A stretch of 64,000 nucleotides of DNA from Lichina pygmaea (Eukaryota; Ascomycota; Lichinomycetes; Lichinales; Lichinaceae). The notes under the pieces are model-generated. The model ran no database searches. It saw nothing but the letters and a program-made list of their open reading frames with translations, and was not told where the DNA came from. How positions within the stretch are numbered: the first letter of the stretch is position 1; each line of letters begins with the position of its first letter. Shown here one piece after another: positions 30,601 through 59,734 of this stretch. The stretch lies in the NCBI GenBank assembly GCA_963422465.1, contig OY730169.1:806001-870000 (forward strand), in the 5' to 3' direction. Both the position numbers and the translations under genes were made by a program.

Positions 30601-33524
30601 GAGCAGCTGTTGCTCCTCGCTCCGTGCCCGATCATCGCGCTTTCGGCCACGGTAGGGAACCCGGAGGAGTTTAACGACTGGCTAGCGGCAACGCAACGCT
30701 CGTCCGGGCTTCACCTGACCATGATCCAGCATCACCACCGCTACTCCGACCTTCGGAAGTTCACCTACGAACCTCCGGAGAGGTTCGGGTTCGCGGGCCT
30801 GCAGAAGCGATGGAAACTGGGGCAGGTCGGCCTCGACGGGATACCTGGCTTCCAGTTCTTCCACCCGGTTGCGAGTCTGCAGAACAAGTCCCGCGGAATC
30901 CCTGCCGATCTTTCGCTCGAAGCGCGAGACTGCCTCACACTGTGGCAGGCAATGGCGAGGCATCAGACCCCTGACTTCCCCGTGCCCAAAAGCCTGGATC
31001 CGAATACCGGCCTCCGAGGACAGATCAAGAAGATCGACGTCATCAAGTGGGAGAGGGAGCTGAAGAAACTTTTGCTCGTGTGGATGGCCAGTCCGCATTC
31101 ACCTTTCCGCGAAGTGTACCAGGATCTGAGCATGCCTCTCGAAGCTCCCCGCTCCGAAGCCGTACAGGTATCGCCCGCCTCGCTGAGCCCCGAGCTTGCG
31201 GAGCCCGTAGATCGAGAGAGTCTCGCCGACACCGCCCTTCCCCTGCTGACAGACCTGTACGAGAGGAATGCTCTGCCGGCGATCTTGTTCAACTTCGACC
31301 GATCGCAGTGCGAAGCCCTTGCTCACGCGGTCCTGCGTCGCCTTGAACAGGCGGAAACGTCGTGGAAGGAGTCGAGTTCGAAGTGGCAGACCCTCGTAGA
31401 CGGTTACGAGAAATGGAAAGCCAGCAAGGCTTCCAAGCCGGCTCGAGCAATCAAAGCCAAGGGGAAGAAAGACGACGGCGCCGAACGTCTGTCGAAAGCC
31501 GATCAGGAGAGAGATTCGGCGGACCAGGAGTCGAATCGCTTCGAGTCATTCGACCCGTCGGCGCCACGTGAAGAATTCAGCTTCGCCGACGTCCCGAAGG
31601 CGGAGAAAGTCGAGATCGAGGACTATTTCAGAGGGCTGACGCGCGAGGGCGTGGATCAATGGCTGATGGCGGCCCTCACCCGCGGCATTGGGGTCCATCA
31701 TTCGGGAATGAACCGCAGGTACCGCCAGACGTAAGTTCCCCTTGGTGCCCATTCCTGTCTCAGGCGGCCACGTGCTAACAGACGGCGTAGCGTTGAGATC
31801 TTGTTTCGAAAGGGCTATCTAAGAGTCGTCATTGCTACAGAGACGCTGGCTCTTGGTATCAATGTTCGTGCAGACCTGTTACCCTTTCCGCTCTCACTTC
31901 TCGCAGCCATCTCCCGAATCTCTTCCGACCTGAAAAATGCCATCTCCTTCCACTCGTTCCGTCATACTAATTTGCCATTTAGATGCCTTGCAAGACTGTC
32001 GTCTTCAGCGGCGACAGCGTTTTCTTGACCGCCCTCAACTTCCGGCAGTGCGCGGGTCGAGCAGGACGTCGAGGCTTCGACATCCTGGGCAACGTCGTGT
32101 TCCATGGACCCTCGTTCGACAAGGCCAGTCGTCTACTGAGCTCGAGCCTCCCCAATCTGAGTGGCCAATTCCCCATGACGACGTCTCTTGTGCTGCGACT
32201 CTTCACGCTGCTGCACGACTCCAAGGACTCGGAGTACGCTAAGCGAATCGTCAGCTCGCTGCTGTCGCAGCCGAGACTCTATCTGGGCGGCGAGATCCTC
32301 AAGGAGCAAGTGCTCCACCATGTCCGCTTCTCGATCGAATATCTCCGACGCCAGCGTCTTCTCGGCGCGCACGGCGAGCCTCTCAACTTTACGAGCTGCG
32401 TCTCGCATCTCTACTACACCGAGAACAGCAGCTTCGCATTCCATGCTCTGCTGAAGGCCGGCTTCTTCCACGCATTGTGCGCCGATGTCAACGAGAAGCC
32501 CGCGATAGTCTTGCGACAGCTGATGCTGGTCATGGCGCACCTGTTCGGCCGGCGCCCACTCCGAACGGCCGACATCGAGTTCATCGAGGAGACGGTCAAG
32601 ACCTCTCCGTCGATCGTCTTCCTGCCCGAGCTCCCGAGGAAGGCCAGGAAAATTCTTCGGGAGCACAACGAGGAGACGCTCGACATCTTCACCACCTACG
32701 TCAAGACCTTTGCCGAGCAACGCATCACGTCCGACGATAGGTCACTACCGCTGACGGGCCTCGAGGTCGGCAGCGCCCAACCGCTATCCGTTGCCGCCCT
32801 CAAACAACTGCCTTCAACGACGGCCCGATCACCCTTCGTTGCGCTGTCCGGTCACTCGGACAACTTCACGTCGATCAGCGATCTCTGCAGCTCCACCCGC
32901 GCAGGCATATTCTTGGAGAAGTCCATCGTTCCCCAGGTCGACGTGCCGTCCGACACGCCGCTCAACGCCTACCTCTACGACTTCTTCATGCACGGATCCG
33001 TAGAGCCGCTCGCAAAAGCGAACGGTATCCGCAAAGCGGACGTATGGTTTGTCCTCAAGGATTTCTCGATGGTGTTGGCCACCGTCGTGATGAGCTTGAC
33101 CAACTTCCTAAAGGGAGGGGGCCTGGACGACGAGGACATCATGAATGTCTTGGACGACGAAGCGATAGCCGAGGAAGAGGCTCAAGCAGATACGCCAAAG
33201 GAGAAGTCGGAGGTGGCATCAAAATCGGAGACCAACAAAGTCCCGGAGCTGAAGAGGGTCTCAAGGAAGAAGAAGGATGTTCCCGACAGCTGGGATACTG
33301 CAGCAGGCGATGAAGACGATGACGACGAGCCGGACGATATGGACCAGGAAGCCGAAGCATCCTCCAGCACCAACAGTTCGAGTGAGGATGGCGATGGTGA
33401 CGAGGTCGATGACGATGACAGCAGCAGCGGCATGGATGCCGAGAAGGGCCTCTCGAACGTGCTCGCGGCCATGAAGCTATTGCAGGCGGACTTTGACCTG
33501 AAGTTCCGCGCAATGTGGGCTTGA
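27641..33524 (+). CDS. DDX60-like Ski2-type DExD/H-box RNA helicase
   Basis: Six exons, 27641-27800, 27867-27962, 28027-28391, 28459-31730, 31791-31863 and 31983-33524, give 1835 aa; introns are 60-119 nt. A second Met at 27650 is possible. The N-terminal 700 residues are the poorly characterised DDX60-type region (YAGNERFIIEGDSLLLHCF, FVVAPTSAGKTF begins the core). RecA-1 has TSAGKT (about residue 800), the DEIH box in IIFDEIHSIAQSEDG (about 907) and SATVGNP. RecA-2 has GIGVHHSGMNRRYRQ, IATETLALGINMP and QCAGRAGRRGFD (about 1345). The C terminus is acidic. The animal homolog DDX60 is an interferon-induced helicase with roles in viral RNA response and translation control; the fungal role is unknown to me. 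Confidence 0.92.
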
Positions 33525-34080: not shown

Positions 34081-34923
34081 GCATAATCTAGTCTAGCTAG
34101 AACTCGATGGCCACAACCAGCTTTGTAGAGGAAGCTTGCGCACTCCGCTCAGAGCTACAGCGACTCATAGAAGTAGCCAGTCCCACTGCCGACAAGACCC
34201 AGGTGAACGGGGGACTACTCCGGCAGATCGCCAGACACCTGCAGGCATCAATCACACAGACGGAGACCCCTAACATCAACGCCGCAACACCGCCCACCCG
34301 CCACAACACCACTGAGCCCACCCTGAGGACCATCCTTGAAGTGGTTCAGCACATCAAGCAACAACTAGATACCAGCCCACCACCACCCAATGGTGACAAC
34401 TCCTACACAGTGGTGGCCTGGTGAGGTGCTGGCACACACCAACCCCACAGCAACAACAACAACTGCCTGCACCACCACAGCCTACAGGACTCCCCTGACA
34501 CAAATTCAAAACAGTTATAGTCCATACCAGAGACCTGAATCAGGTGGCAGGCCTATGGCGAGTAGCCTGCAAGGAGCTTCTGGAACACATCCAGATGGCT
34601 GGTGGCCACACCCCACAGATTATTGCGATCTGCCACATGACATGTGGAGACTTGCTTATTGGAACACAGACAGAAGCAGTCCACCAGAGCCTCAAGGATA
34701 ATACAACATGGCTGGAACAGATGGCCCCCTCTGTGACTATCAAGAGGCACACCTACACAGTTGCTGCCCATAGCATTCAGGTCACCAGCATGAACACAGC
34801 ATCACAAAGCTGGGCCATCAAGGCCCTGCTACAGCAAAATCAGTGACTACACCCAGAGCTCCACATTGAACAGCTCACCTGGCCCAAATCTGCAGAAGTC
34901 AAACAATACTCCACACTACACAT
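34081..34923 (+). mobile_element. LINE-1a: N-terminal part of a LINE ORF1 (relic)
   Basis: From ATG 34107 a gag-like LINE ORF1 reads MATTSFVEEACALRSELQRL, then continues with frame changes (about 34400-34550) to MAGLWRVACKELLEHIQMAG and VKQYSTLH. The frame breaks off exactly at the LTR element at 34924. Its continuation (INTYNMAVANHLLDKELI) is found on the minus strand starting at 42107, so the two pieces were once one ORF1. It is degenerate, with at least two frame changes. Confidence 0.75.
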
Positions 34924-37900
34924 TGTCACGGTTCTGGCCCCGTTGCATATCTGGCACAAGTCACGCACCTTGCCGGGAAGTTCCATCTGCACTGTTGCCT
35001 GTTTGCTCCGCCGTTGCCTGATCCCCTGCCTATAAGAACTTCTCCTGCTCCCCCAGCTTCTTCTCTTCTTTTCTCTTTTTCTTCCTTCCTGGTCTTTCGT
35101 CTTGTACATCAATCCAAGTCTCAAGTCTCAAGCCAAGTCAGGTCAAGGTTACTGAATCAGTTAGGCTTGAGTTCTGCTCTGCCATTGCCTTGTCACACTA
35201 CGAAAGACCTACCCAACCATAACACACTTCACCAAGCCACGTTCACGTCCTTGTCATGTCTCAACAACCAGACCAAGCCATGCCAGTTGCTGGAAATGAC
35301 AAGTTCCTTCGCAATATGTTTGCAGAGTTCATGCGAATTCAAGCTACTAACACTACTCCCAAGTCCAAGTCCGAACGTACTGCTGACCCAGAGATCTTCA
35401 GTGGCGATAGTGGAAACACGGAAATCACGCATGAGAAGCTTGAGAGCTTTATCACATCACTGTCACTCAAGATGACGCTCAACGCTGACCGGTACCCCAC
35501 GGAAACATCGCGGATTGCGTACGTCTTTTCACACACGACTGGCACTGCGCAGTCCTACATCTCAGCTAAGATCACAGCTGGCCAGTACATTGACTGGCAC
35601 GACATTGTCCAAGATCTCCGGAACACCTTCTCTGACCCAGACCCAGAGTTCCTAGCTCAGAGAAAGCTCATCGCCTTACGTCAGGCCAACCGTTCCTTTG
35701 CTGAGTTCTTCACAGAGTTCAATCGGTATGCTCCACGCACAGACTTCAACAACAAGGCCTTGAAGTGCCATCTTCGATACACTGTCTCTGAAGAGCTTGC
35801 CAAGCAGCTTGTCAGCATCAACCTCAAGGACATCAGCTATCAGAAGCTTGTTGAGGAATGCCAGCTGCAGGACAACCAGTTACGTGCCACTTCTGCCAAC
35901 TCTCGCCGTCCACGTCAAGCACCTCCCACCCAAGCCTCAGTTCCACAGTCAGGAGCTTCAGTTCTGTGTCCAGGGTTCATCAAGCCAGCCTTCACGCCAC
36001 AGCCACCAAGTCCTACCATGGATCTCAGCCGCTCTAAGCTGACGCCAGAAGAGCGAGAACATTGCCGAAGCAAAGGCCTCTGCTTCTACTGTGGGAACCA
36101 AGGTCATGTCTCAACCTTCTGTCCAGTGAAAAGCATGCCTGTTGTTGCCACCACTACGACCACCACCAAGTCTGCCACTGTTGAGACTACTCCAGAGTCG
36201 GAAAACAAGTAGTCCTTGGTTATTGTCACGCCCAAGGACATGAAAAGGATCTCCATGTTGGCTATCTGTCTCCAGACCAGCAATTGGACAGTAAGTGCTT
36301 GTTTCTTCCTTGTATCCTAGATGGGAAATTCAAGTGCAATGCTCTTATTGACTCTGGCTGTTCAGCATTTGGCTGTATTGGTGCTTTCTTTGCGCAATCT
36401 CTTCACCAAGAACCTCTCCCCTACCCACGCATATTGTGATTGTTCGATGGCAAGACATCACAAACCACACATCTCGCCAAGACAATCATGACCACAGCAC
36501 ATGGCGTGCACCAGGAGGAAGTCTCTCTCTTTGTGTCTCCTGGTCTTCACTATGATGTGATTCTGGGGATGCCATGGCTCCAGAAGCACAGGCCACACAT
36601 TGATTGGACAAACACCTTAATCATGTTCAAGTCAGATCACTGCTGATCTGCATGCCTCAAGTCAAACAATGGCTATCCAATCTCTTTGGATCTTGAAGCC
36701 AAGATGTCTGCTGGAAAGTCTCAGGATCCCAAGCCTCTTTCTGCCACGCCAATCCTCATCAATGCTGCCGCATTTTCTCTCCTTGCTGCCAAGCCAGATC
36801 ACCAGGTGTTCAGTGTTTCTCTGAGAGACATTGAGCAGATGTTGAAGCCAAAGAAGTGCGTGGATCCTGCCACACTTCTCCCTGCTCAGTACCACAAGTT
36901 CCTGGACGTCTTCAGCAAGGATGACGCTGACAAGCTTCCTCCTCTACGCCCAGGAGTTGACCACAAGATCAAGATGGAACCAAGAACCCAGGCACCCTCT
37001 GGACCTCTGTACGGCATGAGCAGAGAAGAACTCGAAGTTCTCAAGAAGTACCTGACAGAGAACCCGAACAAGGGCTTCATTCAAGCATCTTCATCACCTG
37101 CTACTGCACCAGTCCTCTTTGTCAAGAAGCCAGGAGGTGGATTGCATTTCTGTGTAGACTACAGAGCACTCAACGCTATCACCATCAAGAACTGTTACCC
37201 CCTACCACTGATCCGGGAGATGTTGGACCAGCTTTGCAAAGCTGTGTGGTACACCAAGCTTGATATTGTTGGTGCCTTCAACTGTATCCAGATAAAGGAA
37301 GGTGAAGAATGGAAGACTGCGTTCCGCACATGCTCAGGCCTCTACGAATACCTTGTCATGCCCTTTGGTCTTGCCAATACTCCAAGCACGTTCCAGAACT
37401 ACATCAATGATGTTTTGGGACCTGACATTCTTGACGTCTTTGGCACTACCTATGTGGATGACATCCTTGTCTACAGTCAGACACTCAAGAAACACCGGAA
37501 GTACGTCAAGCTTGTTCTCAGTCGACTACGAGATGCAAGCCTGCAAGTTGACATCTCCAAGTACGACTTTGAAGTGTATCAAGTCAAGTACCTTGGCCTC
37601 ATCATTCAGTCTGCCACTGAAGACGGCTGACCCAGATCTGTGAGTATGGACCTAGCCAAGACTGACGCCATCAAGGAGTAGAAGCCTTCTGCCAGTCTCA
37701 AGGAAGTGCGGAGCTTCATTGCCTTTGCAAACTTCTACCACCGGTTCATCAAAGACTTTGCCAAGCTTGCATCCCCGCTCACAGCTCTGACCAAGAAGAA
37801 TGTTGCCTTCAAGTGGGAAACCCCAGAGCAGCGCTTGTTTGAAAGCATCAAGAAGGCGTTCAGCACTGCACCCATCCTGCAGTACTTTGATCCGGAGAAG

Positions 37901-40247
37901 GAGTGTGTTGTTAAGACTGATACTTCTGACTACGTCTCTGGTGCTGTCCTGTCACAGCCAGACCATGAAGGAGTTCTACGCCCTGTTACCTTCTTGTCAC
38001 ACCGCCACCTGCTGGCAGAATGCAACTACGAGATCTACAACAAAGAGTTGCTGGCAATTGTCTGTGCCTTTGAAGAATGGCGAGCAGAGCTTGAAGGATC
38101 TCCAGAACCTGTCAAAGTGATCTCTGATCACAAGAACTTGGAGTACTTCATGTTGTCAAAGTGCCTTTCCTGCCGTCAAGCCTGTTGGAGCGAGTTCTTG
38201 TCACACTTCAATTTCAAGATCAGCTACTGTCCAGGCAGTCAGTGCAAGGCCAACACCCTCACTCGACGTTCCCAAGACCTCCTGTCAGACAGCGATCCCT
38301 GTCAAGACTTCATAGAGCAAGTTGTCCTCAAGCCCAAGAATCTTGCACATTCAGAGGTTCAAGTCAAGCCCATCCAGATCCTGAGACGTTCAGAAGCTGC
38401 ACCAGTTGACACTGAACCTGATACTACACCTCTTTCAGACATCATCCAAGCTGCCTATAACAACCTTGCTGAAGGTGAACCAGTAGCAACAGTGTCACAG
38501 ATACTAAGAGATGGTGTCAGGCACAGTCGAGAAGTGTCTTTCTCAGACTGCAGCTTGGAAAATGACTGTCTCTTCTACAAGAACTGACTCTGGATCCCTG
38601 AGAATGATGAGCTACGCCTACACCTGTTCTAAGAAGCCCATGACCAAGCAATAGCTAGCCACACTGGGATTACCAAGACTCACAATCTCCTGTCTTGTTG
38701 GTACTATTAGCCAAAGAAGGTAAACATCATACGGCAGTACATCAGGAATTGTCATGTCTACTCTTAAGCAATGCCTGCCCGTGATCGCCAAGGAGAGCTG
38801 CTATCTCTTCCTGTGCCTCAGCAACATTGGCAGGATCTGGCTATGGATTTTATTACTGACTTGCCCAAGTCAAGAGATGCCTGCTTCCCTGGTGCCAAGC
38901 ACATCTGGGTTATCACTGACCGTCTTACCAAAGAACACCACTTTGTGCCATGTGCTGAGATGATAACCTCGCATCTTATCCAGATGTTCATCCAGTTTGT
39001 TATCTGTACCCATGGCTTACCCAGAAGTATTGTCTCAGACAGAGGAGATCAGTTTGTCAGCTTATTCTGGAAAGTACTCTGTGCCCATCTTGACGTCATA
39101 CTACGACTATCCTCAGAACACCACCCAGAGACAGATGGTCAGACAGAACAAGAGAATCAGGAGCTTGAACACTACCTGAGATCCTATGTCAACTATCTCC
39201 AAGATAACTGAGTCCAATGGCTTCCTCTGGCAGAGTTCACACAGAACAACCCCCAGTCTGATTCCTCTAGCATGTCACTGTTCTTTGCCAATAAAGAGTT
39301 CTATCCACAGCTCAGCATCACACCCACGAGTGAAGCCTGCAACCAAGATGCTATGGAAATCTCTGGAGAAATAACGCAGATTCTGGAACAGTTGCAAGCT
39401 GAACTCCGACTATCCCAGGAAGCTCAAGCTCACGCCGCCAATTTGCATCAAGTCCTGTCACTGTTCTATCAAACTGGAGATCTTGTTTGGCTGAATACCA
39501 AGAACATCAGGACACACCACCCATGCAAAAAGCTTGACAACAAGTGGATTGGACTATTCAAGGTGTTGAAGACAATCAGAAGCCGTGCCTGCCATCTGGA
39601 GCTTCCACACACTCTCGAGATCCACCCTGTCTTTCATGTTTCCCTTCTACGTCTGACACCTGCTAATCCTATCCCTGGCCAATCAAATGAACACCCTGGC
39701 CCTGTCATTGGTCAAGACACAGACAAAGAGTTCCAGGTTGAAGAAATCCTTGACTCCAAGCTAGCAACGTCTTGACAGAAGTTCAAGTACCTGGTCAAAT
39801 AGTCTGGATGGCCAATTGAAGATGCCACTGAAGAGACTATTGAGCATCTTGACAACACCAAAGACGCCATCTACAACTTCCATGAGAAATACCCAAGGAA
39901 ACCACAGCCACGGAACTACGCCCACGAGCGGCCTGAGGCTCACAGGAGTTCACCATGTGAAGGAGGGGGGTAATGTCACAGTTCTGGCCCTGTTGCATAT
40001 CTGGCACAAGTCACGCACCTTGCCGGGAAGTTCCATCTGCACTGTTACCTGTTTGCTCCGCTGTTGCCTGATCCCCTGCCTATAAGAACTTCTCCTGCTC
40101 CCCCAGCTTCTTCTCTTCTTTTCTCTTTTTCTTCCTTCCTTGTCTTTCATCTTGTACATCAAGGCAAGTCTCAAGTCTCAAGCCAAGTCAGGTCAAGGTT
40201 ACCGAATCAGTTAGGCTCAAGTTCTGCTCTGCTATTGCCTCGTCACA
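34924..40247 (+). mobile_element. Ty3-type LTR retrotransposon E1 (broken)
   Basis: This is a 5324-bp element with 274-bp TG..CA long terminal repeats at 34924-35197 and 39974-40247 and a purine-rich tract (about 39959-39971) before the 3' repeat. Parts in order: a gag region with a CCHC knuckle CFYCGNQGHVSTFC (about 35.2-36.2 kb), protease-like region, reverse transcriptase with YVDDILVYS (about 37.4 kb), RNase H, integrase (about 38.7-39.4 kb) and a Trp-bearing chromodomain-like tail. It is broken, with several breaks. Flanks differ (CACAT left, ACCAA right), as expected after recombination with copy E2. The copies are close in sequence, so insertion was fairly recent. Confidence 0.9.
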
Positions 40248-40845
40248 ACCAATAGGAGAAGAAGAAAAAAAGAAGTTACTCTGGGTGGCAGGTGTTTTGC
40301 CAAAAGCCCCACCACAACAATCTGAAGCTCTACAAAAAGTTACAGAAAGCTGAGGCAAGCCTACTATTACAAACCAGAACTGGGAGAATTAGTCTGGCAA
40401 GTTTTCTATTCAAAGCTGGAGTTCCAGATTTTCCTACTTCTTTATGTATATGTGGTCAAGCAGAAGAGACAGTGAAACATATCACCTCTTCATGCTCTCT
40501 TTACTCAAGTCAAAGACAGCAAGCCTCTTTCAATTCTCAGGATTTCACTTCTATTATTTCAAACCCAGAGCTTCTACAGAAGTTTCTATACTGGTTCATG
40601 TCTTTGAAAAGACTAAACCAGTTTAATCTGGCTTTCAAACTCCACTATTCACACTCTAATATCTAGAAGTTTTCTCTCTACCAGTCACTACAAGATTTCC
40701 TTTTGCTACATTCCCTAGTCACTCCCAGTCTTCAGTTTTTATTCCTTTAAAAGTTTTCTGAAGAAACTCACTCTTAGCTAGAAGATCTGCATGGCTGAAA
40801 CGCTACTATCAGTGTAACAATCAAATAAAATAAAATAAAGTAAAA
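40248..40845 (+). mobile_element. LINE-2a: 3' end of a LINE ORF2 with A-rich tail
   Basis: It starts directly at the E1 LTR with the target repeat ACCAA. It encodes the LINE C terminus (WQVFCQKPHHNNLKLYKKLQ, LLQTRTGRISLASFLF, CICGQAEETVKHITSSC, NQFNLAFKLHYSHSN), stops at about 40666 and ends in an AAATAAAATAAAAT tail (about 40822-40845). Its 5' continuation lies at 51911-52672 on the opposite strand. A premature TAG (NQ-stop-EKKK at the old junction, against NQW in the related LINE) marks it as dead. Confidence 0.8.
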
Positions 40846-42107
40846 TATCAGGAGTAGCTTGAAGGTGCACTGCCAACTTGTTGATCACTGGCACTTCCAT
40901 CACTGTTTGGTGGTGGGGGGAGAGGTTGTAGATGGTGTGAACCTGGATGGTAGCCAGGATGTCTCTGCACATAGTGTGCAGTGAGAGTGTGGTGATGTCA
41001 GGATTGCCAGTGTTGTCTATCTTCCAGCAGTCAGAATCAAGTTGGCTATTGATGTAGAAACAGACTCTGGTGTGAGGTGCTGGTGTGTAGACTAAGTGGA
41101 ACCCACTGTCTGGGGAGTTGAAGAATGTTGGGTGGAAGGGGTTCTGCCACAGTTCCTGTATCATAATAACATCCAGTTCTGCAGCCACTACAGGCCTGTG
41201 GAGCATGGAGGCTATAGTGCTGTTCTTTTCTTTACAGACATTATACTGCAGAATCCAGAGGTGTGGGCTCACAGGTATTTGTCAGTGTGAGGGTGGTGGT
41301 CCTGTGGGGAGATGGTGTCTGTCTGGGAGCTGCTAACACTGCTCTGGCTAAGCAGGAAGGGGAGGGAGAGGGAGCTACCCTGGAGAGTGTCTGGAGAACT
41401 TCTGAGGTCTGCTGATTCCACATTATGGAAGAGCTTGGGGTCCAGCCACTAGGATATTGCTGGGCTGCCTGGCTGCCATGGGAGTGGTGGCTGTGTGGCT
41501 GTTGTCACTGCTACTGCTGCTACTGCTGCAGTCAGGAGAGGTTGGAGAATCACTGTCTTTGTGAGTCTTTTTCAATATCTGCTGGGGGGGGGGGTGGGGT
41601 GTGCTGGATGACTGCTAGTGACTGGGGTGGTGGGGAGGTAGGGGTATAGAGGTGGGGTATGTGGTTGGCTGGGGAGAGGGGAGTTGCTGTTGGTGGCCTC
41701 TGGTGGGCTGGTGACTGGGCACCTGATCATCACTGGCTTCACTCCTGGCTCTTGCAGAACCTTGCTGGAGTGCTTATTTGAATCACCTGGAGTTGTTTCA
41801 TCTTCTGGTCACAGACTGGTCAGGCCTTCATCCAGGCTGAGTGGCCTGCTCTGTGGCAGTTGGCACACTTTGCCTTTGAGAGGTTGTCAGCCTTCCTGCA
41901 CTTCCTGGAGAAGTGCTCTCTGGTGCAGTAGGTATCTTTGGTTGTGTTTCTGCAGGCTCTGGCAACATGGCTGTAGGCCTGGCAGTGAAGGTATTGTGTG
42001 AGGTGGGTGGCTCTGTTGTACACCTCACAGGTGTGGATCTCCAAGTCTTTGATTAGTTCTTTGTCAAGTAGGTGGTTGGCCACTGCCATGTTGTAGGTGT
42101 TGATGTG
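40846..42107 (-). mobile_element. LINE-1b: ORF1 C terminus and start of ORF2
   Basis: Read on the minus strand from 42107, ORF1 continues from INTYNMAVANHLLDKEL through zinc-knuckle-like motifs (CQAYSHVARAC, CTREHFSRKC, CANCHRAGH) to about 41820. A spacer follows, then ORF2 starts with an AP-endonuclease domain (WILQYNVCKEKNS, VIMIQELWQNPF, GFHLVYTPAP) at about 41272. It breaks off at LQATPDI where the A-tail of LINE-2a begins. It is the displaced continuation of LINE-1a at 34081-34923. Confidence 0.75.
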
Positions 42108-45100
42108 TGTGACAAGGCAATGGCAGAGCAGAACTCAAGCCTAACTGATTCAGTAACCTTGACCTGACTTGGCTTGAGACTTGAGACTTGGATTGATGTA
42201 CAAGACGAAAGACCAGGAAGGAAGAAAAAGAGAAAAGAAGAGAAGAAGCTGGGGGAGTAGGAGAAGTTCTTATAGGCAGAGGATCAGGCAACAGCAGAGC
42301 AAACAGGCAACAGTGCAGATGGAACTTCCCGGCAAGGTGCGTGACTTGTGCCAGATATGCAACTGGGCCAGAACTGTGACATTACCCCCCTCCTTCACAT
42401 GGTGAACTCCTGTAAGCCTCAGGCCACTCGTGGGCGTAGTTCCGTAGCTGTGGTTTCCTTGGGTATTTCTCATGGAAGTTGTAGATGGTGTCTTTGGTGT
42501 TGTCAAGATACTCAATAGGCTTTTCAGTGGCATCTTCAATTGGCCATCCAGACTATTTGACCAGGTACTTGAACTTCTGTCAAGACATTGTTGGCTTGGA
42601 GTTAAGGATTTCTTCAACCTGGAACTCTTCATCTGTGTCTTGACCAATGATAGGGCCAGGGTGTTTATTTGATTGGCCAGAGATAGGATTAGCAGGTGTC
42701 AGACGTAGAAGGGAAACATGAAAGACAGGGTGGATCTTGAGAGTATGTGGAAGCTCCAGATGGCAGGCACAGCTTCCGGCTGTCTTCAACACCTTGAATA
42801 GTCTAATCCACTTGTCGTCAAGCTTTTTGCATGGGTGGTGTGTCCTGATGTTCTTGGTATTCAGCCAAACAAGATCTCCAGTTTGATAGGATGGTGACAG
42901 GACTTGATGTAAATTAGTGGTGTGAGCTTGAGCTTCCTGGGATAGTCGGAGTTCAGCTTGCAACTGTTCCAGAATCTGCGTTATTTCTCCAGAGATTTCC
43001 ATAGCATCTTGGTTGCAGGCTTCACTTATGGGTGTGATGCTGAGCTGTGGATGGAACCCTTTATTAGCAAAGAACAGTGACATGCCAGAGGAATCAGACT
43101 GGGAGTTGTTCTGTGTGAACTCTGCCAGAGGAAGCCATTGGACCCAGTCATCTTGGAGATAGTTGACATAGGATCTCAGGTAGTGTTCAAGCTCCTGATT
43201 CTCTTGTTTTGTCTGACTATCTGTCTCTGGGTGGTGTCCTGAGGATAGTCGTAGCATGATGTCAAGATGGGTACAGAGTGCTTTCCAGAATAAGCTGACA
43301 AACTGACCTCCTCTGTCTGAGATAATACTCCTGGGTAAGCCATGGGTACAGACAACAAACTGGATGAACATCTGGATAAGATGCGAGGTTGTTATCTTAG
43401 CACATAGCACAAAGTGGTGTTCTTTGGTGAGACAGTCAGTGATGACCCAGATGTACTTGGCACCAGGGAAGCAGGTATCTCTTGACTTGGGCAAGTCAGT
43501 AATGAAATCCATAGCCAGATCCTGCCAATGTTGCTGAGGCATGGGAAGAGACAGCAGCTCTTCTTGGCAATTACAGGCAGGCTTTGCTTGAGAGCAGACA
43601 TAACAATTCCTGATGTACTGCTGTATGATGTTCACCATCTTTGGCTAATAGTACCAACAAGACAGGAGATTGTGGGTCTTGGCAATCCTAGTGTGGCCAG
43701 CCATTGCTTTGTTATGGGCTTCTTGGAACAGGTGTAGGTGTAGCTCATTGTTCTCAGGGATCCAGAGTCAGTTCTTGTAGAAGAGACAGTCATTTTCCAA
43801 GCTGCAGTCTGAGAGAGACACTTCTTGACTGTGCCTGACACTATCCCTTAGCATCTGTGACACTGTTGCCACTGGATCACCTTCAGCAAGGTTGTTATAG
43901 GCAGCTTGGATGATGTCTGAAAGAGGTGCAGCATCAGGTTTAGTGTCAACTGGTGCAGCTTCTGAACATCTTAGGATCTGGATTGGCTTGACTTGAACCT
44001 CTGAATATGCAAGATTCTTGGGCTTGAGGACAACTTGCTCCATGAAGTCTTGACAGAGATCACTGTCTGACAGGAGGTCTTGGGAACATTGAGTGAGGGC
44101 ATCAGCCTTGCACTGACTGCCTGGACAGTAGCTGATCTTGAAATTGAAGTGTGACAAGAACTCACTCCAACAGGCTTGACGGCAGGAAAGGTACTTTGAT
44201 GACATGAAGTACTCTAAGTTCTTGTGATCAGAGATCACTTTGACAGGTTCTGGAGATTCTTCAAGCTCTCCTCACCATTCTTCAAAGGCACAGACAATTG
44301 CCAGCAACTCTTTGTCGTAGATCTCGTAGTTGCATTCTGCCAGCAGGTGGTGGCATGACAAGAAGGCAACAGGGTGTAGAACTCCTTCATAGTCTGGCTG
44401 TGACAGGACAGCACCAGAGACATAGTCAGAAGCATCAGTCTCAACAACACACTCCTTCTCCAGATCAAAGTACTGCAGGATGGGTGCAGTGCTGAACACC
44501 TTCTTGATGCTTTCAAACAAGTGCTGCTCTGGGGTTTCCCACTTGAAGGCAACATTCTTCTTGGTCAGAGCTGTGAGTGGGGATGCAAGCTTGGCAAAGT
44601 CTTTGATGAACCAGCGGTAGAAGTTTGCAAAAGTAATAAAGCTCTGCACTTCCTTGAGACTGGCAGGAGGATTCCACTCCTTGATGGCGTCAGTCTTGGC
44701 TGGGTCCATGCTCACAGATCTGGGTCAGCCATCTTCAGTGGCAGACTGAATGATGAGGCCAAGGTACTTGACTTGATGCACTTCAAAGTCACACTTGGAG
44801 ATGTCAACTTGCAGGCTTGCATCTTGTAGTTGACTGAGAACAAGCTTGACATACTTCTGGTGTTCCTTGAGTGTCTGACTGTAGACAAGGATGTCATCCA
44901 CATAGGCAGTGCCAAAGACATCAAGGATGTCAGGTCTCAAAACATCATTGATGTAGTTCTGGAACATGCTTGGAGTATTGGCAAGACCAAAGAGCATGAC
45001 GAGGTATTTGTAGAGGCCTGAGCGTGTGCGGAACACAGTCTTCCATTCTTCACCTTCCTTCATCTGGATACAGTTGAAGGCACCAACAATGTCAAGCTTG

Positions 45101-47398
45101 GTGTACCACACAGCTTTGCAAAGCTGGTCCAACATCTCCTGGATCAGTGGCAGGGGGTAACAGTTCTTGATGGTGATGGTGTTGAGTGTTCTGTAGTCTA
45201 CACAGAAACACAATCCACCTCCTGGCTTCTTGACAAAGAGGACTGGTGCAGCAGCAGGTGATGAAGATGCTTGAATAAAGCCCTTGTTCAGGTTCTCTGT
45301 CAGGTACTTCTTGAGAACTTCGAGTTCTTCTCTGCTCATGCTGTACAGAGGTCCAGAGAGTGCCTGGGTTCCTGGTTCCATCTTGATCTCGTGGTCAACT
45401 CCTGGGTGTAGAGGAGGAAGCTTGTCAGCGTCATCCTTGCTGAAGATGTCCAGGAGCTTGTGGTACTGAGCAGGGAGAAGTGTGGCAGGATCCACACACT
45501 TCTTTGGCTTCAACACCTACTCAATATCTCTCAGAGAAACACTGAACACCTGGTGATCTGGCTTGGCAGCAAGGAGAGAAAATACGGTAGCATTGATGGG
45601 GATTGGCGTGGCAGAAAGGGGCTTGGGATTCTGAGGCTTTCCAGCAGACATCTTGGCTTCAAGATCCAAAGAGATTGGATAGCCATTGTTTGACTTGAGG
45701 CATGCAGATCAGCAGTGATCTGACTTGAACATGATTAAGGTGTTTGTCCAATCAATGTGTGGCCTGTGCTTCTGGAGCCATGGCATCCCCAGAATCACAT
45801 CATAGTGAAGACCAGGAGACACAAAGAGAGAGACTTCCTCCTGGTGCACACCATGTGCTCTGGTCATGATTGTCTTGGCGAGATGTGTGGTTTGTGACAT
45901 CTTGCCATCAAACAATCACAATGTGTGTGGGTAGGGGAGAGGTTCTTGGTGAAGAGATTGCGCAAAGGAAGTACCAATACAGCCAAATGCTGAACAGCCA
46001 GAGTCAATAAGAGTATTGCACTTGAATTTCCCATCTAGAATACAAGGAAGAAACAAGCACTTGCTGTCCAATTGCTGGTCTGGAGACAGATAGCCAACAT
46101 GGAGATCTTTTTCATGTTCTTGGGTGCAACGATGACCAAGGACTACTTGTTTTCCAACTCTGGAGTAGTCTCAACAGTGGCAGACTTGGTGGTGGTTGTG
46201 GTGGTGGCAACAACAGGTATGCTTTTCACTGGACAGAAGGTTGAGACATGACCTTGGTTCCCACAGTAGAAGTAGAGGCCTTTGCTTTGGCGATGTTCTT
46301 ACTCTTCTGGTGTCAGCTTAGAGTGGCTGAGATCTATGGTAGAACTTGGTGGCTGTGGTGTGAAGACTGGCTTGATGAACCCTGGACGCAGAACTGAAGC
46401 TCCTGACCGTGGAACTGAGGCTTGGGTAGGAGGTGCTTGACGTGGATGGCAAGAGTTGGCAGAAGTGGCACACAACTGGTTGTCCTGCAGCTGGCATTCC
46501 TCAACAAGCTTCTGATAGCTGATGTCCTTGAGGTTGAAGCTGACAAGCTGCTTGGCAAGCTCTTCAGAGACAGCGCATCGAAGATGGCACTTCAAGGCCT
46601 TGTTGTTGAAGCCTGTGCGTGGAGCATACTGATTGAACTCTGTGAAGAACTCGGCAAAGGAACAGTTGGCCTGACACAAGGTGATGAGCTTTCTCTGAGC
46701 TAGGAACTCTGGGTCTGGGTCAGAGAAAGTGTTCTGGAGATCTTGGACAACATCATGCTAGTCAATGTACTGGCCAGCTGTGATCTTAGCTGAGATGTAG
46801 GACTGCGCAGTGCCAGTCGTGCGTGAAAAGACGTACACAATCTGTGATGTTTCCGTGGGGTACCAGTCAGTGTTGAGTGTCATCTTGAGTGACAGTGACA
46901 TGATGAAGCTCTCAAGCTTCTCATACGTGATTTCTGTGTTTCCACCATCACCACTGAAGATCTCTGGGTCAGCAGTATGTTCAGACTTGGACTTGGGAGT
47001 AGTGTTAGTAGCTTGAATTCGCATGAACTCTGCAAACATGTTGTGAAGGAACTTGTTATTTCCAGCAACTGGCATAGCTTAGTCTGGTTGTTGAGACATG
47101 ACAAGGACGTGAACATAGCTTGGTGAAGTTTGTTATGGTTGGGTAGGTCTTTCGTAGTGTGACAAGGCAATAGCAGAGCAGAACTCAAGTCTAACTGATT
47201 CAGTAACCTTGACCTGACTTGGCTTGAGACTTGAGACTTGGCTTGATGTACAAGACAAAAGACAAGGAAGGTGTTACAACCCAGGGATAGGAGCCACTCA
47301 TTTATAGGCAATCAGGCCGCAGGCCAGGCAAGAGGACACCATGGAAGTCAAGTGACCAACCAACAAGGGGTCACATGACTGTCGAGACACACACGGGA

Positions 47399-47524
47399 GT
47401 CTTGACGCATGATGCATGAAGCATCAAGACAATCTCACCAGTCTCGACGCATGATGCATGAAGCATCAAGACAATCTCACCAGTCTTGACACATGATGCA
47501 TGAAGCATCAAGACAATCTCACCA
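47399..47524. repeat. Three 42-bp palindromic tandem units in the left E3 LTR
   Basis: Units at 47399-47440, 47441-47482 and 47483-47524 each contain CTTGACGCATGATGCATG and GCATCAAG, which nearly pair with each other. The same array occurs in the right LTR. Confidence 0.85.
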
Positions 47525-50500
47525 GTCTTGACGCAGGGTGCATTACATGGTGGGACTGTCGAGACAATCTCACCTGTCTTGACGTCAAGACTGTCAAGAC
47601 AATCTCAATCATCTCGACAGGCTAGCACTATATAGTCCAGCGATAGTTCTCTTATAGAACAATCGTCTTCAACTCATGTTGTGATCCAGACAACTAGATC
47701 TACTTCAATACAATCCTTTGTACGAAGCCATTGATCAGGTGTCACCACCACCATGTTCCACCAAACCCCTTCGCACTCCTTGACACTCCTCTCCTGCGAG
47801 AACCAACCCGCCTTCCACCTCTCGCCCTAATCCTATACTCGGATAGGACAGTACGGTACAGACCGCAACACTTTGAAGACCCTCAAGGATGAGTACCTCA
47901 GAAGCAACCAACCCCAACTTCCCAGATGGAAAGATTAGCATCGCCAAGCCAGACCTGTTCTACAGCGAAAGAAACAAGGTTGATGACTGGCTCATGCAAC
48001 TCCAAGTCTACTTTCAATTCCAACCAGAGACAAAGCTGCCTAAGGAAAAGTGGCCCCTCTTTGCAACCACTTACATGAGAGGCAATGCTTATCGATGGAT
48101 CAAACCCTACGTCAACAAACACCTCTCAGGGAACAGAGACCACGACAGCACAACAGAATGGATGACAAAATAGACACGATTCAAGGATGAGATCAAAAGG
48201 ATCCTTGGACCATCTAACAAAGATAAAGTGGCTATACGAATGATCCAGCACATCAAACAACAACGCTCAGCCGCAGAGTACACCACGCAGTTCAAACAAT
48301 ACTCAGTACTGACTGACTGGGACAACAACACCCTGATGGTCATGTACTGACGTGGACTCAAGGAAAACGTGAAGGATGAAATCACCTTCGACGGACGAGC
48401 AGTCGACACACTGGACGAACTCATCGCACAAGCAATATGTCAAGCATTGATCAACAACATCATCAGAGCACACCTGGACCAAACAGCTATCACCTACCTG
48501 GACGACATTCTTGTCTACTCGAACACGCAACAAGAACATACCAAACATGTGAAGGATGTTCTATGATGCCTACAAGAGGCAGGGCTCAAGCTCAACCCAA
48601 AGAAATGCGAGTTCAACAAACCGGAAGTTGAATTCCTCAGATACATCATAGGGATCAAAGGGATCAAGATTGACTCTGAGAAAATCAAAGTGATTCAGCA
48701 ATGGCCAACACCGACATCAGTTAAGGAAGTACAAGCCTTCCTAGGATTTGCCAACTTCAACTGACAGTTCATCAAGAACTACTCACAGATGGCAACACCA
48801 CTGACAGAACTCACAAAGAAGGACGTGGAGTACCGGTGGACGGAGAGACAACAAAAAGCATTCCAACAGCTCAAGGACACTTGCGCCAAGGAACCAGTTC
48901 TCCTCAACTTCAAGACAGGCCAACCGACACAAATTGAGACGGACGCTTCAGATCAGGCAGTGGGAGCATGTCTATACCAACAGGCAGACGGCAAGTGGCA
49001 CCCAGTTGCCTACTACTCACGAAAAATGACACAAGTGGAACGAAACTATAATATCCACGATAAAGAGCTACTGGCAGTCGTCAACACACTCAAACACTGG
49101 AGAGTGTACGCGGAAAGCAGTTCTGAACTCACCATTCTCACAGACCACAAGAATCTGACAACGTTCACGACAACCAAGAAGCTGAACAGACGGCAAGTCA
49201 GATGGGCTGAACTCCTAGGGCAACACAAGTTCAAGATCTTGTACACCCCTGGACGAGACAATGGGAGAGCAGACGCACTAAGCTGACGAAAAGACCACAT
49301 GGAAGATGATGAACACCAAGGAACAATCTTACAGCAGGACCAGCAAGGAAACCTGGTGCCTCAACCACAGATCAACGAGCTCACAGCAGAAGACACTGAA
49401 GAACTAATAAGGAACTACCATGATAACCCAGCACACAGTCACCCAGGAATCTCCAAGACCACAGACCTTATCCAACAGGCAGGGAACAATGTCATTAACC
49501 TCCGACAACATGTCACAAACTACATCAGCAAGTGTCTACTATGCCAGAAAAACAAACATGGAAGACATAAGCCATACAGAGAAGGACACCCGAACACGAT
49601 ACCGAAAGGCCTGTGGGAAGACGTGTCAATGGACTTCATCACAAAGCTACCCAAGTCCAAAGACCCAGTCACAGGAATCACCTACGACTTGATTATGGTG
49701 ATAGTGGACAGATTCACAAAATATCTAATAGTGGTACCATTCAAGAAGACCCACACAGCAGAACAGTTGGGACACCTCTTACTGGACAGATTGGTCAGAG
49801 ACCACGGAGTTCCGATCATGATCATTACAGACAGAGATAAACTCTTCACATCCAACTACTGGAAGACAATCAGTGCAGCCATGGGAACAAAACCCAAAAT
49901 GTCTACGGCCTATCATCCACGAACTGACAGCCAGACAGAGTGAGCGAACCAAGTCCTGGAGACTTACTTACGGCATTACATCAACAAGACCCACAGCAAT
50001 TAGGCACAGTTATTACTGGTGGCACAGCTGGCAATCAACCAGCACAGATCAGACTCAACAAAGGAATCGCTATTTTTTGCCAATTTTGGACAACATGCGA
50101 ACATCAGGATGCCAAGCAGAGCTTCACCAAACACAGAGAAAGCACTCCAACACGACAAGCTCCTACGACAAACGCACACGATGATGAGGCACTACCTTCA
50201 AGAGACCTCAGAAAGAATGCAACGTCAAATGGACAAGAAATTGAAAATGGCACCTCAGCTAAAGAAGGGGGATAAAGTCTACCTCCTCACAAGAAATTGG
50301 AAAACAAAGAAACTAAGAACAAAGAAACTGGACCATGTCAAGGTCAGACCATTTTCAGTTGAAGAAAAAGCCGGACCAGTCAACATCAGACTGCGACTAC
50401 TGAGAGATGCTCGGGTACACCCAAACTTTCACATCTCAATGATCGAATTAGCCGACCAGAGCACACCCTTGCAGGAAACATTTCATTACCAACCAGAGGA

Positions 50501-50793
50501 AGAACAGGAATTCAAGGCTGAACAGATCCTGAAGAGAAAAGGTCAGCGATACCTTGTCAAGTGGAAAGACTACCCAGACTCGGAAAATACCTGGGAGCCA
50601 CTCAGGAACCTCGCAAACTGCCAGCTCCTCCTGCAGCAGTTCCAGCAGGAGCAGGACTGAACAGCTCGGCCTGCAGCGCGGACGCATCAATAACTGTCAC
50701 CGACAAGTCTTCACCATCTGCCTCCATTTCAGCAACAAGGCACTGGAGCTTCTTCTTTGCTTGACCCTCAGCACCCTCAAGAACCTTTCACTT

Positions 50794-51102
50794 TCAGGAC
50801 ACACAAGCCTGCAGCTTGGCAAGCTGCTCGACAAGAGCATCCCGCTTGGCCTCATCAACAGCCAAATCCTTGCGAAGGTTATCCTGAGTCATGTTCAGCA
50901 ACTCCCAAGAAAGTGACACACAGGACTTTCCCTGGCGAGTGCACTCAGCGCACTTCAACTTATCGTTGTCGTCAGACATTCGGAAGCAGGGCTTGTGGTT
51001 CAAAACACAGAAGTCACACGGAGCAAGCGACACAAAGTTATGATCACGGATCTGGGCTGCCAGTTGGTTTCGGTAAGCAGAGGCACGTGATTTTGCAGAC
51101 AT
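50794..51102 (-). CDS. Antisense ORF in E3 with a Zn2Cys6-type cysteine pattern
   Basis: Opposite to the E3 coding strand, between the chromodomain and the right LTR, a frame from MSAKSRASAYRNQL (51102) encodes about 102 aa. Its cysteines run PCDFCVLNHKPCF, then KCAECTRQGKSC: spacing C-x2-C-x6-C-x11-C-x2-C-x6-C, which fits the fungal Zn(II)2Cys6 binuclear-cluster consensus. A helical C terminus (DLAVDEAKRDALVEQLAKLQ) could be a coiled coil. The frame is also open upstream into the LTR to 51186. I recall similar antisense frames in fungal LTR elements without a described function. It belongs to the element, not the host. Confidence 0.6.
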   Translation of the reverse strand: MSAKSRASAYRNQLAAQIRDHNFVSLAPCDFCVLNHKPCFRMSDDNDKLKCAECTRQGKSCVSLSWELLNMTQDNLRKDLAVDEAKRDALVEQLAKLQACVS

Positions 51103-51273
51103 ACTCAAGAATTCATCAGGATGATGAATGAAGGAGAGGAGGGTAGTGTTACGACCCAGGGATGGGAGCCACTCATTTATAGGCAATCAGGCCACGGGCC
51201 AGGCAAGAGGACACCATGGAAGTCAAGTGACCAACCAACAAGGGGTCACGTGACTGTCAAGACACACACGGGA

Positions 51274-51399
51274 GTCTTGACGCATGATGCATGAAACATC
51301 GAGACAATCTCACCAGTCTTGACGCATGATGCATGAAGCATCAAGACAATCTCACCAGTCTCGACACATGATGCATGAAGCATCAAGACAATCTCACCA
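51274..51399. repeat. Three 42-bp palindromic tandem units in the right E3 LTR
   Basis: This is the counterpart of the array at 47399-47524, with a few substitutions. Confidence 0.85.
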
Positions 51400-51910
51400 G
51401 TCTTGACGCAGGGTGCATAACATAGTGGGACTGTCAAGACAATCTCACCTGTCTCGACGTCGAGACTGTCAAGACAATCTTGATCGTCTCGACAGGCCAG
51501 CACTATATAGTCCGGCGATAGTTCCCTTATGGAACAATCGTCTTCAACTCATGTTGTGATCCAGACAACTAGATCTACTTCAATACAATCCTTTGTACGA
51601 AGCTATTGATCAGGTGTCACCACCACCACGTTCCACCAAACCCCTTCGCACTCCTTGACACTCCTCTCCTGCGAGAACCAACCCGCCTTCCGCCTCTCGC
51701 CCTAATCCTATACTCGGATAGGACAGTACGGTACAGACCGCAACAGAAGGAAGAAAAAGAGAAAAGAAGAGAAGAAGCTGGGGAAGCAGGAGAAGTTCTT
51801 ATAGGCAGGTGATCAGGCAACAGCGGAGCAAACAGGCAACAGTGCAGATAGAACTTCCCGGCAAGGTGTGTGACTTGTGCCAGATATGCAACAGGGCCAG
51901 AACTGTGACA

Positions 51911-52672
51911 TTGGTTTTCCCACTCTTTAACAAAGAGTTTCTGTAGTTCTTTCTTTAAACTAGCCTGGTTAGTAGTTATTTAGTTTAACCAAGTGAACTT
52001 CCAGTAGGGAGAGATAGTTGAGAATCTCTTTAATAGTATCTTCAGAGAAGAGGTATAGTGGGTGATATTAGAAAAAATATTGTCCAGAAGTGATTTCAGA
52101 GAGGAGGTTTGAATAGAAAAGAGGAAACAGACTGTGCAAAATTTGAAATAGAGATCTAGAGGTAAAAGAAAAGGCTCACTCTCTAATAAGAAAGATGGAG
52201 TGGCTTTGAAGGCATCTCCAATAAGTCTCAGATATTTGTTCTGGAATATGATAAGAGGAAATATTAGAAGATTTTCTTAGAGGATTGAACCAGATCCCCA
52301 CTGTATAACTCAGTAAGGATCTGAGTATTGCAGTATACACAAGACATGATGTGAGGACTTGGCAACTCCAAGTAGAATAAGAAGTTCTGGAGAGAGAGGA
52401 GAGTGCTTTCTGAGCTTTTTGAAGGATAATTCTCTGGTGCTTATGTCAGTGGAGTTTTGCATCCAGGTACACTCCTAATACTCACACTTCTTCTTTTAGT
52501 CTTAGAATCACATTCCCCAGTCTGAGCTTAAGCTGAAGATTGTCTGATCTTCTTCTGGAAAAATGAAGTATTTTATATTTCTCAGAAGAGAAAACTATTC
52601 CATGTCTTGCAGTCTATGATAGACATTTGAGGTGTGTGTTCTTCAACTTCAGAAGGTTGCTTTTTAGCCACA
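51911..52672 (-). mobile_element. LINE-2b: reverse-transcriptase part of a LINE ORF2
   Basis: On the minus strand it matches the LINE at 56115-59504 from LKSNLLKLKNTHLKCLS (52.67 kb) to LQKLF..EWENQ, where E2 begins. It carries stops and frame changes (for example a TAG in place of the Trp codon in the SWAA segment). Its 3' continuation is LINE-2a at 40248. The 5' truncation point is at about 52670. Confidence 0.75.
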
Positions 52673-53832: not shown

Positions 53833-55581
53833 TTTTTTTTATTTGTTTTTATTTGATTCTTACACTGATAGTAGCTTTACAGCCATGCAGATCTTCTAGC
53901 TAGTAGTGAACTCCTTCAGAAAACCTTTAAAGAAATAAAAACTGAAGGCAGGGTGTGACTAGAGGATGTAACAAAAAAGATCTTGAAGTGTCTGGTTGGA
54001 GAAAAAAGATCTAGGTATTAGATTGGGAATAGTGGAGTTTGAAAGCCAGGTTAAACTGGTTTAGTCTTTTCAAAGACATAAACCAGTACAGAAACTTCTG
54101 TAGGAGCTCTGGGTTTGAAATAATAGTGGTGAAGTCTTGGGGATTAAAAGAAGCTTGTTGTCTTTGTCTTGAATAGAGAGAACATGAAGAAGTGATGTGT
54201 TTTGCAGTTTCCTCTGCTTGGCCACACATGCATAAAGAGGTAGCAAAATCAGGAACTCCAGCTTTGAATAGAAACCTTGCCAGACCAATTCTCCCAGTTC
54301 TGATTTGTAGTAGCAGACTTGCCTCAGCTTTCTGTGGCTTTTTGTAGAGCTCCAGATTATCTCTGTGTGGCTTTGGGCAGAAAGTCTGCCAACCTGGGTG
54401 GCTTCTTCTTTCCTTCTCTTCCTATTGGTTTTCTCACTTTTTAGTAAAAAGCTTTTGTAGTTCTTTTTTTGAACTAGCCTGGTTAGTGGTTATTTGACTT
54501 AACCAAGTGAATTTCCAATTTGGAGAGATAGTTGATGATTCCTTTAAAGGTTTCCTCAGTGAAGAAGTATAAGAAGAAATAGTAGAAGAGGTACTGTCAA
54601 GAAAAGTTTTCAGAGAGGAGGTTTGGATGGAAGAGAGAAAACAGGCTGTGTGGAATTTGAAATAAAGATCTAGAGGTAAAAGAAAAAGCTCACTCTCTAA
54701 TAGAAAAAAGAGACTGGCTTTGAAAGCACCTCCAATAAGTCTTAGACATCTGTTTTGGAATGAAACAAGAGAAGAGATATTAGAAGATTTTCTTAGAGGG
54801 TTGAACCAGATCCCCACTGCATAGCTCAGAAGAGATCTGAGTATAGCAGTGTACACAAGACATGATGTGAGAACTGGGAAGCCCCAAGTTGAGTAGGAAG
54901 TTCTAGAGAGAGAGGAAAGTGCTTTCTGTGCTTTTTGAAGAATAATCCTCTGGTGTTTGTGCCAGTGGAGCTTTGCATCTAGGTACACTCCAAGTACTCG
55001 CACTTCTTCTTTTGGTTTGAGAATCACATTCCCCAGTCTGAGCTTGAGCTGAAGATTGTCTGATCTTCTTCTGGAAAAATGAAGTATTTCATATTTCTTG
55101 GGAGAGAAGACCATCCCATGTCTTGCAGCCCAGGACAGACATTTGAGATGTGTGTTCTTCAACTTCAGAAGGTTGCTTTTCAGAGAGTGACCAAAAGCAA
55201 GCAGATTGGTATCATCTGCAAATCCCAGAGCAGAAACACCAGAAGAGGGAGTATGCACTGTTTCATGCAGTTCAGAAATATAAAATAGAAAAAGAATAGA
55301 GAATAGAGAAGAATCTTGGGGAACTCCACAGTGAATAGAAATAGGGAAAGACTCAGAGTCATCAAAAACAAGAGTGGTAGAGTGCTTGGTGCAGAAACTG
55401 TAGATCCAAGAAGTTAGCCAGGAAGAGATACTTTTTCTTTCTAGAATTTGCTGTAGAATCTCAGGTAGAACTCTGTCATAGGCTTCTGCGATATCCAGAG
55501 AGAGAAGAGATACAACCATGCCTGCCTTCCAGACTTTCTCCATTTGGGAGGTCAGGAGGAAAAGTGCTGACTCTGTTGATT
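53833..55581 (-). mobile_element. LINE-4: 5'-truncated LINE with 12-bp target duplication
   Basis: Flanked by ATATACTGCATG at 53821-53832 and 55582-55593. The A-rich tail lies at 53833-53855 (minus strand). Coding runs from within the reverse transcriptase (MEKVWKAGMVVSLLSLDIAE at 55543, then FADDTNLLAFGHS) to LQKLFTKK at 54434, after which a stop interrupts it; the C-terminal knuckle CGQAEETAKHITSSC and the end FKLHYSQSN follow to 54011. The 5' end lacks the endonuclease domain. It is very close to the LINE at 56115-59504. Confidence 0.88.
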
Positions 55582-55806
55582 ATATACTGCATGTAGTGGT
55601 GGGAGACTTTAACCTACACCACCTATTGTGGGGAGGCCACTGATACCTCACACAACACATGGTGGTGGACAGATTTCTTGACATAGCTGCAGAAACAGAT
55701 CTTCACCCCACCCTACCCCTGGGCACTATCACATGGAGAGCACACTACCTGGAGAGTACAATTAACCTCATCTTTGTGTCTACAGCACTCACTGTCAGGT
55801 GCTAGT
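55582..55806 (+). mobile_element. Older LINE relic: endonuclease-domain fragment
   Basis: The plus strand reads VVVGDFNLHH, DLHPTLPLGTITWRAHYLES and INLIFVSTALTV, the second half of an AP-endonuclease domain, with an internal stop after WGGH. It is the right half of the target of LINE-4 and the left half of the target of the miniature LTR element that starts at 55807. Confidence 0.7.
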
Positions 55807-59729: not shown

Positions 59730-59734
59730 CTAGT

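Follow-up and report, generated by a model that had tools for sequence, protein, structure and literature searches.

How did two neighbouring copies of one retrotransposon in the fungus Lichina pygmaea come to carry each other's target repeats? The locus lies in a window of 64,000 nt (contig OY730169.1, positions 806,001 to 870,000, forward strand) from an assembly of 32.47 Mb in 8 contigs, and all coordinates below are positions in this window. The two Ty3-type long terminal repeat (LTR) elements, named E1 and E2, lie in opposite orientation about 1.9 kb apart and both sit in long interspersed nuclear elements (LINEs). E1 is flanked by CACAT and ACCAA and E2, read in its own direction, by ACCAA and CACAT, which is an exact crosswise match. 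We conclude, with a probability of roughly 0.87, that this arrangement is an inversion made by ectopic homologous recombination between the inverted Ty3-type copies. The parts of the locus, including pieces of LINE open reading frames (ORFs), are as follows.

34847..34923, plus strand: left piece of the LINE A ORF1 frame that spans the join, ending in CACAT; a 119-residue open stretch when rejoined, with three paralogues ungapped at the join
34919..34923, no strand: target repeat CACAT, left of E1
34924..40247, plus strand: E1, a decayed Ty3-type LTR element of 5324 bp, with LTRs and gag, reverse transcriptase, RNase H and Tf2-1 SH3 domains
34924..35197, plus strand: E1 5' LTR on the CACAT side; its partner is the E2 3' LTR, with which it shares a rare G at LTR site 168
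39974..40247, plus strand: E1 3' LTR on the ACCAA side; its partner is the E2 5' LTR, with which it shares a rare G at LTR site 190
40248..40252, no strand: target repeat ACCAA, right of E1, the reverse complement of the TTGGT right of E2
40253..42102, no strand: X, 1.85 kb of non-element DNA between E1 and E2, inverted relative to both outer flanks as read from the empty-site joins
42103..42107, no strand: target repeat ATGTG, left of E2; its minus-strand reading is CACAT
42108..51910, minus strand: E2, a Ty3-type LTR element interrupted by E3 and with 94% complementarity to E1 over 5164 nt
42108..42381, minus strand: E2 3' LTR on the CACAT side
47158..47271, minus strand: E2 5' LTR, inner piece
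47272..51745, plus strand: E3, a nested LTR element inside the E2 5' LTR, its ends read directly; two of its ORF pieces carry integrase and chromo domains
51751..51910, minus strand: E2 5' LTR, outer piece
51911..51915, no strand: target repeat TTGGT, right of E2
51916..52165, minus strand: outer piece of LINE B ORF2, the portion used for the empty-site test, whose join is spanned by 40 of 40 scored genome matches

The LTRs of E1 and E2 are 274 bp long (TGTCAC...GTCACA), and four ORF pieces of E1 match models of gag, reverse transcriptase, RNase H and the Tf2-1 SH3 domain, none of these four matching integrase. By their LTRs, their 5-bp repeats and these domains, both elements are classed as Ty3-type LTR retrotransposons; the domains were searched in the four E1 pieces only, and E2 is classed by its similarity to E1.

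The preliminary description of this DNA had given the flanks in plus-strand order as CACAT and ACCAA for E1 and ATGTG and TTGGT for E2, matching crosswise, and we confirmed them to the base. If equal base frequencies are assumed, such a coincidence of two 5-mers has a chance of about (1/1024)^2 for two given elements. The base rate was taken from a survey with the pattern of the 5' LTR junction, which had 219 matches with up to 3 mismatches; 79 of the 100 listed were exact, including E1 and E2. Of the other 77 exact matches, 76 entered the survey, 40 as complete sequences and 36 as end pieces, and the copy L050 was left out; a further copy, L049, was added to the input but excluded, as it showed no junction motif near its start. 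Both ends were found in 31 of the 76 surveyed copies, only the 5' end in 40, only the 3' end in 2 and neither in 3. The 5-bp repeats of the 31 two-ended copies were identical in 22, differed by one base in 1 and by more in 8, with the ends located by motif and not all of the mismatched cases checked by eye. Among the 76 copies together with E1 and E2, only E1 and E2 formed a reciprocal crosswise pair; there were two other matches in one direction, one of them between the ACCAA of E1 and the 5' flank of another copy. The eight copies with mismatched repeats (L017, L018, L026, L038, L045, L059, L079 and L105) had no reciprocal partner in the survey, and they are possibly further rearrangements or copies with mis-called ends.

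Both ancestral sites could be verified from paralogues because both insertions cut LINEs. The left end of X is the end of LINE B ORF2 (plus strand) and its right end is the continuation of LINE A ORF1 (minus strand). The left flank of E1 joined to the reversed X gave a 119-residue open stretch of LINE ORF1 across the join, of which about 25 residues came from the left flank, with an in-frame TGA just upstream (34844-34846). The rejoined frame reads VKQYSTLH and then INTYNMAVANH, so the frame cut at E1 does resume beside E2 as previously described. A 500-nt query across this join had 10 matches in the genome, and six of them spanned the join at 66-87% identity. Three of these were long (query positions 3-500, 83-85% identity, ungapped within 60 bp of the join) and three were shorter (87%, 67% and 66%), while the remaining four were the two halves of the query at their own places in the window, at 100%, and two short matches that stopped before the join. 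The second claimed continuity, from the LINE ORF2 cut at E2 to the piece beside E1, was found as well, with the frame reading EWENQ at the join. Forty of 677 candidate matches to the query across this join were scored, and all 40 spanned it at 92-94% identity, 34 of them without net change in length. Two of them were inspected and were ungapped at the join, as were all five matches inspected over both joins. Crosswise joining thus restores both pre-insertion sites without extra deletion or duplication. After the Q of EWENQ there is an in-frame TAG, a detail absent from the preliminary description. TGG and TAG were both found at that codon among the 100 listed of 231 LINE motif sites, and the TAG is no flaw in the join because the codon is variable. 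Because both codons occur, we also discarded the idea of a conserved stop or of readthrough in the LINE.

Because both LTRs of an insertion are copied from a single template, a crossover within the elements must also exchange the LTR partners. This gave a test that is new to the present analysis. All three parsimony-informative sites of the LTR quartet (168, 190 and 260) supported the crosswise pairing, and none supported the within-element or the same-end pairing. The LTRs of the CACAT pair differed at 6 positions, those of the ACCAA pair at 13 and the other pairings at 12-14; the E1 5' LTR has 6 differences from the E2 3' LTR versus 13 from the E1 3' LTR. For comparison, 45 control pairs were formed from 10 copies with matching target repeats; the normal pairing beat the crosswise one in 42 and tied with it in 3, the crosswise pairing won in 0, and the same-end pairing beat the normal one in 1. 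Summed over the control pairs, 247 informative sites were normal, 9 crosswise and 24 same-end. The approximately unbiased test on the E1/E2 quartet rejected both alternatives to crosswise pairing (p=0.025). In addition, the rare transversions G168 (5 of 192 motif places genome-wide) and G190 (3 of 477) each marked one crosswise pair. Both copies are therefore chimeric at their ends, as had been proposed, since their LTRs pair crosswise at the three informative sites.

The history that the preliminary description had suggested, with one insertion in a plus-strand LINE, another in a minus-strand LINE and a later crossover that inverted the DNA between them, finds support in the target repeats, in both LINE sites and in the pairing of the LTRs. 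A Ty3-type element, Ea, would have inserted into a plus-strand LINE and made the CACAT repeats, and a second copy, Eb, would have inserted facing the opposite way into a nearby minus-strand LINE and made the ACCAA repeats. Homologous recombination inside the inverted Ea and Eb would then have inverted the DNA between the exchange points, so that E1 would consist of Ea-left and Eb-right and E2 of Eb-left and Ea-right. Recombination between inverted copies on one chromatid would fit the repeats, LINE sites and LTR partners, and template switching during replication would give the same product. We infer that the exchange took place in the cell rather than in the assembler, as a mitotic, meiotic or replication-associated event.

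The LTR markers bracket the exchange within 35183-40141 of E1 and 42214-47172 of E2, and therefore 2.1 to 12.0 kb were inverted, in agreement with the earlier estimate of roughly 2 to 12 kb. The longest run identical between E1 and E2 is a candidate for the exchange site, and an exchange in it would have inverted about 9.1 kb.

36506..36718, plus strand: candidate crossover tract in E1, a run of 213 bp without any difference from E2 (positions 1583-1795 of the element)
45637..45849, minus strand: candidate crossover tract in E2, the same 213-bp identical run

The nominal chance of this run was 0.0015. The alignment of E1 with E2, which had been proposed as a way to find a switch point, yielded no consistent single switch, whether by diagnostic sites of one subfamily, change-point tests or a comparison with two subfamilies. 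When E1 was compared with 15 other copies, 6 of the 15 tests showed a shift of affinity within the element at p<=0.01, as expected of a mosaic. In the two-subfamily comparison, 18 of the 20 discriminating sites at element positions 317-1235 were of the type E1=A/E2=C, and beyond position 1298 the sites were mixed (27 versus 20). Only 1 of the 22 private substitutions of E1 lay in the first 1600 internal bases, and E2 had no opposite trend. E1 thus looks mosaic, but the hints disagree on the location and E2 has no complementary change; copies of this family are probably mosaics themselves.

Several results count against the inversion or against its placement. The E1 3' LTR differs from the E2 5' LTR at 13 positions, no fewer than from the E1 5' LTR (13), and the Kishino-Hasegawa and Shimodaira-Hasegawa tests on the LTR quartet gave only p=0.096. 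A tree of 45 LTRs placed the two members of the CACAT pair as sisters with a support of only 0.39 and did not place those of the ACCAA pair as sisters, and the LTR nearest to the E1 5' LTR belongs to another copy (1.5% versus 2.2% difference). The rare markers are not unique, G168 being found at two places in one other element and at one more place, and G190 at one more; the copies with G168 (L049 and L050) and with G190 (L051) resembled E1 no more than other copies did, their internal regions having 93-95% identity to it. Of 300 copy pairs, 20 had identical runs with p<0.005. With three reference sets, the change-point tests of E1 versus E2 had p values of 0.057, 0.13 and 0.30, and 5 of 105 null pairs reached p<=0.01 in the same test. 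The change points of E1 in the 15 tests were mostly at internal positions 3071-3480 (element 3345-3754), outside the 213-bp tract; E2 compared with other copies changed its affinity at p<=0.01 in only 1 of 15 tests, and the two-subfamily comparison for a switch point gave p=1.0. Finally, an assembly error has to be judged from the assembled sequence alone.

In such an error the assembler would have jumped from one inverted copy to the other and reversed X (40253-42102), while the repeats of the real molecule would be normal. The outcome would look the same in its exchanged repeats, its LINE pieces and its LTR pairing, and E1 and E2 do share the exact stretch of 213 bp. However, 297 of the 5324 aligned positions differ between the two copies, so few contigs for an assembly of this size suggest long reads, and a single long read could cover X together with one element (about 7.2 kb). 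Because the copies are divergent and the contigs few, we regard an assembly artefact as unlikely. A somatic flip-flop, with both orientations of X among the nuclei and only one in the assembly, would have a plausible substrate in 5.3-kb inverted copies of 94% identity about 1.9 kb apart, but a divergence of 5.6% is expected to suppress recombination, and the assembly holds a single version of the locus (a search of the assembly for a second version found none, each half of the first joined query having one 100% match), so it appears very improbable. A history without any inversion, in which two insertions happened to coincide, their repeats degraded and gene conversion followed, can hardly be credited: mismatched repeats do occur in 8 of the 31 other two-ended copies and long identical runs between copies are not rare, but the exact crosswise match of both 5-mers, the restoration of both LINE sites and the crosswise pairing of the LTRs are left jointly unexplained.

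Recombination between the inverted copies remains our preferred explanation. We would further speculate, as a long shot, that the copies are a live switch with X still flipping in some nuclei, and that such exchanges may be frequent genome-wide (8 of 31 with mismatched repeats). If so, swapped repeats and LTR partners could be used to read the rearrangement history of the genome.

The hybrid-element model requires cut-and-paste ends and is unsuited to a retroelement. It was discussed for the transposon Galileo of Drosophila buzzatii (Delprat et al. 2009, PMC2775673). Galileo is the closest published case, as inversion 2z3 was made by Galileo copies with ectopic recombination inferred, and the passages on it share with E1/E2 the opposite-facing copies, exchanged target repeats and chimeric copies (PMC2775673). 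Galileo is a transposon with long terminal inverted repeats, whereas E1 and E2 are of a Ty3-type retroelement; for 2z3 the breakpoints of non-inverted chromosomes were compared, the switch was placed within 141 bp and the inversion was known cytologically (PMC2775673), whereas the inversion of 2.1-12.0 kb here is inferred within one genome. The same passages state Ty-mediated inversions in yeast as known, so dispersed LTR elements recombine into inversions there too, a likeness drawn from that citing statement (PMC2775673). Another fungal LTR element, crapaud of Podospora anserina, has 7 of 150 full copies with disparate 5' and 3' ends, ascribed to gene conversion or ectopic recombination; unlike for E1/E2, the passages on crapaud report neither an exchanged partner nor a restored empty site (PMC10787394). 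Among the titles listed in general searches of the open-licence literature none dealt with this locus, and a search on Lichina and retrotransposons found no paper. The signature itself is already published, and the present locus is a well-supported addition to it, involving a fungal Ty3-type element and with the LTR partner swap as an extra test. It offers a compact and checkable retroelement-driven inversion, in which the swapped LTR partners serve as a second test within one genome and no relative is needed. As the DNA between the copies consists of LINE sequence wherever it was examined, an effect on host genes is not expected.

The differences between E1 and E2 were mostly C/T or G/A changes (279 of 297), and 234 of those lay in CpG or CpA/TpG context, which precludes dating the pair by a simple clock. 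The observed/expected ratio of CpG was 0.16 in E2, 0.39 in E1 and 1.03 in window positions 1-34000, a pattern as after repeat-induced point mutation or methylation decay. The target repeat GAAGG of E3 is present on both sides (47267-47271 and 51746-51750). L050 (C4:2856850-2862450) has its 5' part twice head to tail, with an LTR and 1172 bp of internal sequence followed by an LTR and 3737 bp.

The genome is rich in Ty3-type and LINE copies. Beside the inversion, two more LINE copies lie in opposite orientation (54009-55537 and 57795-59323, 89% complementary), and 51916-52664 holds LINE pieces resembling both of them. A direct repeat of 88 bp (55793-55880 and 59647-59734, 89% identical and 3854 bp apart) brackets a plus-strand LINE stretch. 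To the left of the locus there is an ORF for a DDX60-like helicase (28468-31734, 1088 residues), with a putative further exon piece to 33524 suggested by helicase-like residues. Its best named match was a metagenome protein of Lichina confinis, a lichen fungus of the class Lichinomycetes, with 93% identity over the full length.

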